In this document: piece by piece, positions 39,847 to 42,806 of the stretch
Numbering within the stretch: the first letter of the stretch is position 1
Layout of the letters: each line of letters opens with the position of its first letter
Origin: Candidatus Koribacter versatilis Ellin345
Lineage (GTDB): Bacteria > Acidobacteriota > Terriglobia > Terriglobales > Acidobacteriaceae
DNA: 64,000 bases
Direction: 5' to 3'
Assembly: GCF_000014005.1 (NCBI RefSeq)
Contig: NC_008009.1
Coordinates: 1,860,001 to 1,924,000, forward strand
Notes under the pieces: generated by a model
What the model was told of the DNA's origin: nothing
Databases searched by the model: none
What the model saw: only the letters and a program-made list of their open reading frames with translations
Position numbers and translations under genes: made by a program

Positions 39847-40202
39847 AAGCAGCTGCCGCCGATATCCCGCTCTGTATCAGGCCAGCGCTTCAGCGCCGCC
39901 GATATCCCGCTCTGTATCAGGCCAGCGCTTCAGCGCCGCCGATATCCCACTCTGTATCAGGCCAGCGCTTCAGCGCCGCCGATATCCCGCTCTGTATCAG
40001 GCCAGCGCTTCAGCGCCGCCGATATCCCACTCTGTATCAGGCCAGCGCTTCAGCGCTGCCGAACTGCCGCCCTGATATTTTCGGGGGCTTAAGCCCTGCC
40101 GCCTGTTCACGCAACTCTAAATTCAGCGCCGCCGATATCCCACTCTGTATCAGGCCAGCGCTTCAGCGCTGCCGAAAACCCGCTTTGTATCAGGGCAGCG
40201 CT
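39847..40202. repeat. REP-rich intergenic region, left side of the transposase
   Basis: A stretch of 356 bp with no credible gene. It contains the 40-bp array, a type-B module at about 40061-40105 (CGGGGGCTTAAGCCC hairpin) and a further 40-bp unit at 40134-40173. The variant unit at 40174-40213 carries TTTGTATC in place of TCTGTATC. Reading frames through it are repeat artefacts. Confidence 0.85.
39861..40060 (+). repeat. Five perfect-period 40-bp tandem repeats
   Basis: Five contiguous 40-bp units (39861, 39901, 39941, 39981, 40021). Each reads GATATCCCRC, then TCTGTATCAG, then GCCAGCGCTT, then CAGCGCYGCC. Only two positions vary among the five. The 3' half forms the REP-like hairpin AGCGCTtcAGCGCT. 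Because there are no unique spacers, this is not CRISPR. The array begins 14 bp after the ATP-grasp stop and leads into the RAYT element. Confidence 0.92.
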
Positions 40203-40790
40203 TCAGCGCTGCCGAACTGCCGCCCCAATATTTTCGGGGGCTTTAGCCCCTGCCGCCTTCTGCCTCGCCAAAAATGTAAAACAATACGCAAACTCCTCTC
40301 CCTCGCGAACCAACCCATCATTCACGGGATTTTTCGCAATATACTCCCGATGCCGCAAATAACTCTCCCTGTCCTCCACCCGAACCTCTGAAAATCCCTT
40401 CTGCCAAACATCTCCGGGATACCCGAAATCCTTTTTGATCCGATACGAAAATCCGCCCTTGATAAATTGCACCGCCTTCTCGATCGAAGTCTCACCATCG
40501 ACCGTCAGCAGAAGGTGCACATGATCAGGCATCACAACGAAGTCGTGGATCTCGAACTTCTGCTCTCGCGCGTAGTGCCGCAGTACCTCAATCAACAAAC
40601 TTGCATTCCTCTCTGATTGCAGCAGTCGTTTCCCGCTCGCCGTTTTCGTAGTCACAAAAAACGTTCGCGCTCCACTCAAAATCGCATTCGCATCCGCATT
40701 TCTAGACGGCCTGGCCATTCGCAGGGGCTGAAGCCCCAAACCTTTCGAGTAGCTCTCTCCGGCAGCGCTGAAGCGCTGCCCTGATACAAA
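40184..40790 (-). mobile_element. RAYT element bounded by exact 30-bp inverted repeats
   Basis: The 30 bases at 40184-40213 (starting TTTGTATCAGGGCAGCGC) recur exactly in inverse orientation at 40761-40790 (ending GCCCTGATACAAA). Both carry the rare TTTGTATC variant, while nearly all neighbouring copies have TCTGTATC. Inside them are inverted type-B hairpins (GGGGGCTTTAGCCCC at the left, GGGGCTgaAGCCCC at 40724-40737). The 607-bp unit contains one RAYT gene. This looks like a discrete REP-transposase unit (REPtron-like), here found in a probable acidobacterium. Confidence 0.78.
40203..40718 (-). CDS. REP-associated tyrosine transposase (RAYT, IS200-like)
   Basis: Y1-type HUH transposase of 171 residues. 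The HUH metal site is MPDHVHLLL, and the catalytic Tyr is in HREYIAKNPV. The family segments FFVTTKTASGKRLLQ, FIKGGFSYRIKKDFGYPGDV and WQKGFSEVRV are all present. The ATG at 40718 is chosen; the longer frame translates REP sequence. About 20 C-terminal residues (QKAAGAKAPENIGAAVRQR) are encoded by REP sequence, and the TGA stop lies in the TTCA loop of a REP hairpin. RAYTs cut and move REP hairpins as single strands. The surrounding REP field suggests it has been active here. Confidence 0.9.
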   Translation of the reverse strand: MARPSRNADANAILSGARTFFVTTKTASGKRLLQSERNASLLIEVLRHYAREQKFEIHDFVVMPDHVHLLLTVDGETSIEKAVQFIKGGFSYRIKKDFGYPGDVWQKGFSEVRVEDRESYLRHREYIAKNPVNDGLVREGEEFAYCFTFLARQKAAGAKAPENIGAAVRQR

Positions 40791-40978: not shown

Positions 40979-41645
40979 AACATCCCGCTCTGTATCAGGG
41001 CAGCGCTTCAGCGCTGCCGAACTGCCGCCCCTGATATTTTCGGGGCTTCAGCCCCTGCCGCCCCGTCCCGCACACTCTAAATTTCGCGCCGCCGACATCT
41101 CGCTCTATATCGCCGACATCCCGCTCTATATCGCCGAAAAGCCGCTCTGTATCAGGGCAGCGCTTCAGCGCTGCCGAACTGCCGCCCCTGATATTTTCGG
41201 GGCTTCAGCCCCTGCCGCCCCGTTCACGCAAACCCTAAGTTTCGCGCCGCCGACATCTCGCTCTATATCGCCGAAAAGCCGCTCTGTATCAGGCCAGCGC
41301 TTCAGCGCTGCCGAGCTGCCGCCCCTGATATTTTCGGGGCTTCAGCCCCCTGCCGCCTTTTCACGCAAACTCTAATTTCGCGCCGCCGACATCCCGCTCT
41401 ATAACGCCGACAACCGGCTCTGTATCAGGGCAGCGCTTCAGCGCTGCCGAACTGCCACCCCTGATATTTTCGGGGCTTCAACCCTGCCTCCTTTTCACGC
41501 AAACTCTAATTTCGCGCCGCCGACATCCCGCTCTATAACGCCAACATCCCGCTCTGTATCAGGGCAGCGCTTCAGCGCTGCCGAACTGCCGCCCCTGATA
41601 TTTTCGGGGCTTTAGCCCCTGCCGCCCCGTTCACGCAAACTCTAA
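40979..41645 (+). repeat. Composite REP array, five ~136-bp units
   Basis: Type-A hairpins (GGCAGCGCTTCAGCGCTGCC or close) start at about 40999, 41156, 41292, 41429 and 41563. The spacing is 157, 136, 137 and 134 bp. Each is followed about 10 bp later by a type-B module (CCCCTGATATTTTCGGGG, then GGGGCTTCAGCCCC) and a variable linker (CGCAAACTCTAA, CGCCGACATC, GCTCTATA). All copies share one orientation. The degenerate lead-in (40915-40980) repeats shorter GCCGAYRTCCCGCTC units. No gene is credible here. Confidence 0.88.
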
Positions 41646-42023
41646 ATTTCGCGCCGCCGATCTCTCGCTCCAATCCCCGAACCACTCTCAAAATTTCACC
41701 CCAAAACTCTAAAAAATCCCCGTGCCCACGCAATTTCCACCTTCCCCCACGCGTTTTTTTCGCCCTTTCCCCCCAATTTTCCGCCCCTAATCACACTCAT
41801 TCGTGCTCCCAATCACATCCCGCCACGACCAAATCGTCTAACGTCTCTCTCGCACCACGATCTTTGAAATCCCCAACCCTCCGTGTCTCCGCGTCTCCGT
41901 GGAAGGTGTAACTCCTACGGGCAGAGGAATTTACCTATAACTCCTACGCCGAGAGGAATTTGCAGAGATTGCATAGCCTAAGCTGCTGAAAACACAAGAG
42001 GGTGGGGGAGGGGGGATACACCC
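41646..42023. other. Non-coding stretch after the REP array
   Basis: About 380 bp of C- and A-rich sequence without a supported gene. Only a 24-bp imperfect direct repeat is recognisable: TAACTCCTACG..AGAGGAATTT at 41909-41932 and again at 41938-41961, period 29. It probably also holds the promoter of the downstream hypothetical gene, which follows GGTGGGGGAGGGGGG. Confidence 0.6.
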
Positions 42024-42806
42024 ATGAAGTTCCAGGAATGTCAGCACGTTTTATCCGACGGCGATACCTGCCGCGCACCACGCCTGCGCCATGAGCAGTT
42101 CTGCTATTTCCACGTCGCCACCCGCGATCGCGTTAAGCGCCAGCAGCGCGCCGCCGCTCGACGTCTCCCCCTTCAGGTCCCCGTCCTCGAAGATCCCTGG
42201 ACCGTCCAACTCGCTCTCGGCGACATCGTTAATGCCATGCTCAACGATCGCATCGACCACAAAAAAGCCGCGCTCGCGCTCTATGCGCTGCAAACCGCTT
42301 CCGCCAACATGAAAAACCTCAGCAATCTCGGACGTCCCCAGTCCTACGCCGAGTACACTCCCGAACTCCAGGCCTCCATGCCCGAAGACGTGGTCGCGGA
42401 AACTGTCCGCGAAGAAGTTGCGTGCGAAGATGCGCCGATGACTTCTGCTCCCACCGTGATAACTCCGGAAGCGCGCCCCGAGATGCCGCACTGCGTCGAG
42501 TCCGCCCCGAGGAAACTGCGCAAACACAAAATTCCTCCCAAGAAACCCGTCGCATCCATCAAGCCGCCCCGCTACCGCACTCCGCTCGACCGCATCCGCG
42601 AGTTCGAAGTTGCCGCGAAAAAAGAGGAGATCTGGGCCGTCAAGCAATACACCAAGGCCTATAAGGAAGGACGTGCCGAACCGCTCCAGTGGGCCATCGA
42701 CGAAGCCCTCGAGGCCCCCAGGAAACTCCAGGAAGATCGCGACTTCGTCGATACCGAAATGGCTGCGCTCCGGAATCGTATGAAGAACAACCGTCGCCGC
42801 GCCTGA
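42024..42806 (+). CDS. Hypothetical protein with N-terminal Cys/His motif
   Basis: A 260-residue protein not assigned to a known function. The first 30 residues hold a possible zinc site: Cys6, Cys16, Cys27 and His30 (ECQHVL, DTCRAP, FCYFH). A basic helix (RVKRQQRAAARRLPL) and a helical segment that repeats in related-looking proteins (LALGDIVNAMLNDRIDHKKA) follow. The C-terminal half is Lys/Arg/Glu/Pro-rich and low in complexity. The strong purine-rich ribosome site upstream supports the ATG at 42024. Nucleic-acid binding is plausible from the zinc-like head and basic tail but unproven. Confidence 0.7.
   Translation: MKFQECQHVLSDGDTCRAPRLRHEQFCYFHVATRDRVKRQQRAAARRLPLQVPVLEDPWTVQLALGDIVNAMLNDRIDHKKAALALYALQTASANMKNLSNLGRPQSYAEYTPELQASMPEDVVAETVREEVACEDAPMTSAPTVITPEARPEMPHCVESAPRKLRKHKIPPKKPVASIKPPRYRTPLDRIREFEVAAKKEEIWAVKQYTKAYKEGRAEPLQWAIDEALEAPRKLQEDRDFVDTEMAALRNRMKNNRRRA

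Follow-up and report, generated by a model that had tools for sequence, protein, structure and literature searches.

Candidatus Koribacter versatilis Ellin345 carries a transposase gene between two inverted palindromic repeats. The question is whether this locus is a REPtron of an acidobacterium and, if so, whether the gene and its repeats travel together. The locus lies in the window (the whole stretch of 64,000 nt analysed here, 1,860,001-1,924,000 of a 5,650,368-bp single contig); positions are those of the window unless given for the genome (G000:C1).

A RAYT gene between two inverted twin-hairpin elements

The gene runs from 40718 (ATG) to 40203 on the minus strand and encodes 171 aa. Its product is a Y1 HUH protein with DHVH at residues 65-68, WQ at 105-106 and the catalytic Tyr126 in REYIAKNP, and it matches Pfam Y1_Tnp (E 2.4e-14). 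We assign it to the RAYTs rather than to the IS200 transposases because it scores 107.9 bits with the NCBIfam equivalog REP_Tyr_transpos (NF047646; cut-off 80) and 43.3 bits with the IS200 profile, under the cut-off of 55, and because the solved structure that it matches best, both by sequence and by predicted fold (pLDDT 81.6), is 4er8, the complex of E. coli TnpA-REP with a REP hairpin. As judged from these comparisons, the gene is confirmed as a RAYT/TnpA-REP of an acidobacterium lying between inverted repeats, as an earlier note on this DNA had proposed.

There are four Y1 transposase genes in the K. versatilis genome. Besides this one, two score above the RAYT cut-off, and no A/B hairpin pairs (see below) were detected within 500 bp of them. 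One of the two (G000:C1:5294690-5295067; 97.5 bits) has only a terminator-like hairpin within that distance.

The RAYT gene is enclosed by an exact inverted repeat of 31 bp, TTTGTATCAGGGCAGCGCTTCAGCGCTGCCG, at 40184-40214 (+) and 40760-40790 (-); the earlier note had the identity and the inversion right but gave the length as 30. Each copy comprises a foot, TTTGTATCAG, and hairpin A (GGCAGCGC-TTCA-GCGCTGCC). Inside these lie two inverted copies of a second hairpin, B, as had also been noted. The left one, GGGGCTTTAGCCCC (40237-40250; 40236-40253 on the plus strand with its right-end TGC), starts 22 nt past A within the 3' end of the gene. The right one, GGGGCTTCAGCCCC (40724-40737; 40721-40737 on the minus strand with its TGC), has its final C 5 nt ahead of the ATG. 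Each flank is one element of ~70 bp, in which the foot, hairpin A, 19-22 nt, hairpin B and TGC follow one another and both hairpins point in the same direction. Two details had escaped the earlier note: the left B hairpin is wholly overlapped by the coding sequence, and the TGA stop falls within the left A hairpin. The symmetric A-B-gene-B'-A' arrangement that it described is real and, as shown below, recurs around related RAYTs.

The arrangement has the inverted palindromes flanking the gene that characterize a REPtron, and these palindromes are dispersed through the genome. Several near-identical full-length copies, as an IS200/IS605 element would have, are not found: the 607-bp unit occurs once in the K. 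versatilis genome. We conclude that the locus is very probably an acidobacterial REPtron ('TIRtron'), i.e. a Y1 HUH RAYT enclosed by a pair of cognate elements in inverted orientation.

The dispersed element and its constraints

We counted element copies by pattern search and from genome stretches. The earlier note had suggested a genome-wide search; the 27-mer core of the repeat gave 70 copies at <=3 mismatches, 36 of them exact, against 0 for a reversed control, so the repetition is not due to chance. With a stem-neutral pattern there were 133 A-type hairpins at <=1 mismatch (control, 0). A lack of other copies had been named as grounds for giving up the reading; they are in fact abundant.

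Among 42 non-redundant dispersed A-B copies, the conserved stretch begins at GnTTTGTATCAGGG and closes with CCCCTGC; it takes in both hairpins, and the 19-22 nt between them are poorly conserved. At position -7 relative to TATC, and again 15 nt past the start of the B core, conservation has dropped almost to 0 bits; ends as sharp as these are as for discrete inserted elements. Hairpin A is under constraint, since paired changes in its stem exceed both controls: double changes occur in 5 of the 8 A pairs, with 28 such cells against 7.9 when shuffled and <=5 when slid.

For orientation and sequence variants we used a catalogue of 76 copies (13 in the field beside the RAYT gene and 63 elsewhere). 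The right flanker is the sole copy opposed in orientation to its close neighbours; all other close neighbours are same-oriented, so inverted REP doublets, the dispersed units expected of REPINs, were not found among the 76. A crude midpoint split gave no evident replication-strand bias (12/12 and 23/16). The element also occurs in the genome with GGCACGAC and GGCATCGC stems (e.g. G000:C1 50622, 97328 and 3155259-3155737), and the GGCATCGC form additionally makes up a tandem array at about 3,155,250-3,155,740. None of the four Y1 genes was seen to bear either stem.

RAYT loci and hairpins in relatives

A foot-A-B unit precedes the start codon in 9 of 10 named acidobacterial RAYTs (51-68% identity), and in most of them an inverted unit follows the gene too; Ns mask the sequence in the tenth. 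Hairpin B ends 4-5 nt ahead of the ATG in 9 of 10 genes compared, the K. versatilis RAYT included. RAYT loci in more distant genera have the same block design with other stems, and some more distant relatives have a GTRG-AAG foot in place of the GTAT-CAG of Koribacter. The exact A stem was found once, in 1 of 40 relatives, and is essentially private to the K. versatilis genome; conservation of the repeats in relatives that have no RAYT, which would have counted against the proposal, was not seen.

Genomes with a strong RAYT homologue hold a median of 23 generic hairpins and those without hold 0, and within the family alone the correlation has P = 0.019 (both uncorrected for phylogeny). The pairing of RAYT and stem is not one-to-one, since the flanking stem differs from the commonest dispersed stem in several relatives (e.g. 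G013, G014 and G010). We accordingly dropped the idea that the two match in every genome. In G001, a genome of the same genus, the RAYT is decayed and is accompanied by an AB unit of GGCACGGC stem.

In G039, from another family of the same class, the same foot and the GGCACGGC stem occur in ~27 inverted A-B..B'-A' pairs 100-140 bp apart, some of which lie within larger repeated DNA. The RAYT of this genome is at a contig end. We had considered this as proof of multiple copies and discarded it, because a chance assembly break could explain it.

Does the block move as a unit?

The earlier note took the 607-bp structure for one transposable module. The recurrence of the block in relatives agrees with this; since the unit is single-copy in K. 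versatilis, its transposition would have to be read from those relatives. Their RAYT loci share no flanking gene in synteny with the window or among themselves. In both G001 and G016 (same family), the sequence read to the right of the orthologous D-Ala ligase contains no RAYT and no REP field. Conversely, the decayed RAYT of G001 sits between two genes that are adjacent, without a RAYT, in K. versatilis. That the block stands at unrelated sites in every genome compared, with reciprocal absence between congeners, hints at movement as a unit; divergence, gene loss, transfer or rearrangement could be alternative causes. The comparison with relatives lacking the insert, from which target-site boundaries had been hoped for, gave no clean junction, either beside the ligase of G001 and G016 or at the G001 RAYT site in K. 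versatilis, the intergenic DNA being too diverged.

At the RAYT-free counterpart of the G001 site (G000:C1, about 2750280-2750320) there is a lone GGCACGGCTTCGGCCGTGCC hairpin followed by ATTTTTATT; the hairpin is either terminator-like or an element relic.

These comparisons bear most directly on an account that treats the entire A-B-gene-B'-A' block as an IS-like element still able to change sites in one piece. Its terminal repeats would be the AB elements, and the dispersed copies would be solo ends or derivatives lacking the gene. The absence of synteny, the RAYT-free ligase neighbourhoods, the G001 site and the inverted pairs of G039 speak for this account, but synteny decay or horizontal transfer would look alike at 50-68% protein identity, neither RAYT-free site aligns cleanly enough for a precise junction, the genome has one copy only, and the literature states that there is no evidence for tnpA-REP mobility (PMC8266576). 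We think this account possible, with the odds somewhat against it. The wider proposition, that in Acidobacteria the two inverted twin-hairpin ends travel between sites together with the RAYT that they enclose, such that tnpA-REP there would be a mobile element and not a domesticated immobile gene, is tentative and in our view rather unlikely.

The opposite account is that the RAYT is domesticated, immobile and host-serving, with hairpins that spread long ago and whose main use today is to signal in transcription or at mRNA ends. RAYTs have been described as domesticated single-copy genes without evidence of mobility (PMC8266576), and the single copy and conserved catalytic motifs here fit that description. 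It is harder to square with a block present in unrelated contexts, a decayed same-genus copy (G001) and 36 exact 27-mers among the dispersed copies, which suggest recent spread or conversion; we regard it as doubtful. A third account, that the RAYT lies by chance among ordinary terminators or repeats amplified by recombination, draws on the recombination-type amplification of the local tandem arrays but is extremely improbable given the unique opposed orientation of the right flanker and the recurrence of the block around RAYTs in many genera, with B 4-5 nt from the ATG in 9 of 10.

For a REPtron, the enzyme would most likely, by analogy with TnpA-REP (PMC8266576), recognize the foot TTTGTATCAG and hairpin A, perhaps also B, as single-stranded DNA, cut at the element edges through Tyr126, and would over time have spread the gene-less element through the genome. 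First candidates for the cut sites are CT dinucleotides close to either end of the element. It is on this analogy that we infer that the RAYT binds and moves these hairpins. The A stems differ among RAYT lineages, which co-evolution of enzyme and hairpin would predict. Given its position near the start codon, hairpin B may in addition restrain translation of the RAYT.

Relation to known systems

The earlier note held REPtron-like units to be mainly proteobacterial. Acidobacterial cases, K. versatilis among them, were described in 2013: as far as its main text goes, Di Nocera 2013 (PMC3733652) defines an acidobacterial TIRYT group, lists three K. versatilis TIRYT genes (1552, 2776 and 3477) and reports that only the TIRs of ORF1552 form a repeated family. 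ORF1552 is very probably the gene studied here, since the Y1 gene positions fit the genome order of the three listed ORFs, and we take the locus as reported then. What the two descriptions share is an acidobacterial RAYT-like gene whose inverted flanking repeats make up a repeated family in K. versatilis; that paper also speaks of 'double palindromic TIRs'. The anatomy of A and B, the boundaries, the covariation and the relocation were not found in its main text.

Like the gammaproteobacterial REPtrons of E. coli and Stenotrophomonas (PMC2817692, PMC8266576), the Koribacter RAYT lies between inverted palindromes dispersed genome-wide, and there too stems vary through compensatory changes and group 3 has perfect palindromes. 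In contrast to the canonical GT[AG]G at the stem or 1-2 nt off, the Koribacter foot is GTAT with CAG before the stem, and not GTAG/GTGG. Koribacter further differs in having an additional hairpin, B, which is almost constant and oriented like A, and in element ends that overlap the gene start and stop regions. The protein shares the DHVH, WQ and YIxxNP motifs of TnpA-Y1 subclasses 2.5 and 2.7 (Quentin et al. 2018, PMC6006769), although, compared by motifs alone, YIAKNP fits neither signature exactly. REPINs, as outlined in PMC3116915, are likewise RAYT-associated short mobile hairpin elements, and the inverted pairs of G039 look REPIN-like, whereas the copies in Koribacter are same-oriented A-B units with a close inverted pair only at the RAYT.

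The pairing of a RAYT with dispersed hairpins is of a known kind, and this locus itself had very probably been reported already. New are the family-wide twin-hairpin architecture, the placement of B 4-5 nt ahead of the start codon and the block at unrelated sites in every genome compared. With the enzyme gene, its start and stop codons and the hairpin ends packed into one block that occurs in unrelated contexts, the view of RAYTs as immobile could be put to a direct test, and the stem variants found in nature next to their own RAYTs offer a ready-made panel for how the enzyme reads its hairpin.

The local tandem field

Two tandem arrays adjoin the RAYT gene. The left one (39850-40215, +) has a 40-bp unit in 9.3 copies, with A-type hairpins on the foot CTCTGTATCAGG, mostly without B. 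The right one (40985-41660, +) has units of 134-157 bp with A and B in each. The bases before TATC are TCTG in 11 of the 13 field copies and in 2 of the 63 elsewhere; TTTG precedes TATC in 2 of the 13, both of them flankers, and in 43 of the 63. The flankers therefore match the form common across the genome, and the field consists of a local variant amplified in tandem. The earlier note had called TTTGTATC rare, which is so in the local field only; as the majority form elsewhere it is no private mark of the two flankers, and we abandoned it as such. The proposal that the unit is the source of the surrounding REPs is also weakened, since most of these belong to tandem arrays in which the TCTG variant has diverged and which presumably grew through local duplication.

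Just right of the field, window positions 41924-42017 and 42101-42308 each have matches scattered over the same-genus G001 at many places. A further dispersed repeat thus lies there, as does a repeated part of the ORF at 42024-42806, which has no Pfam match.
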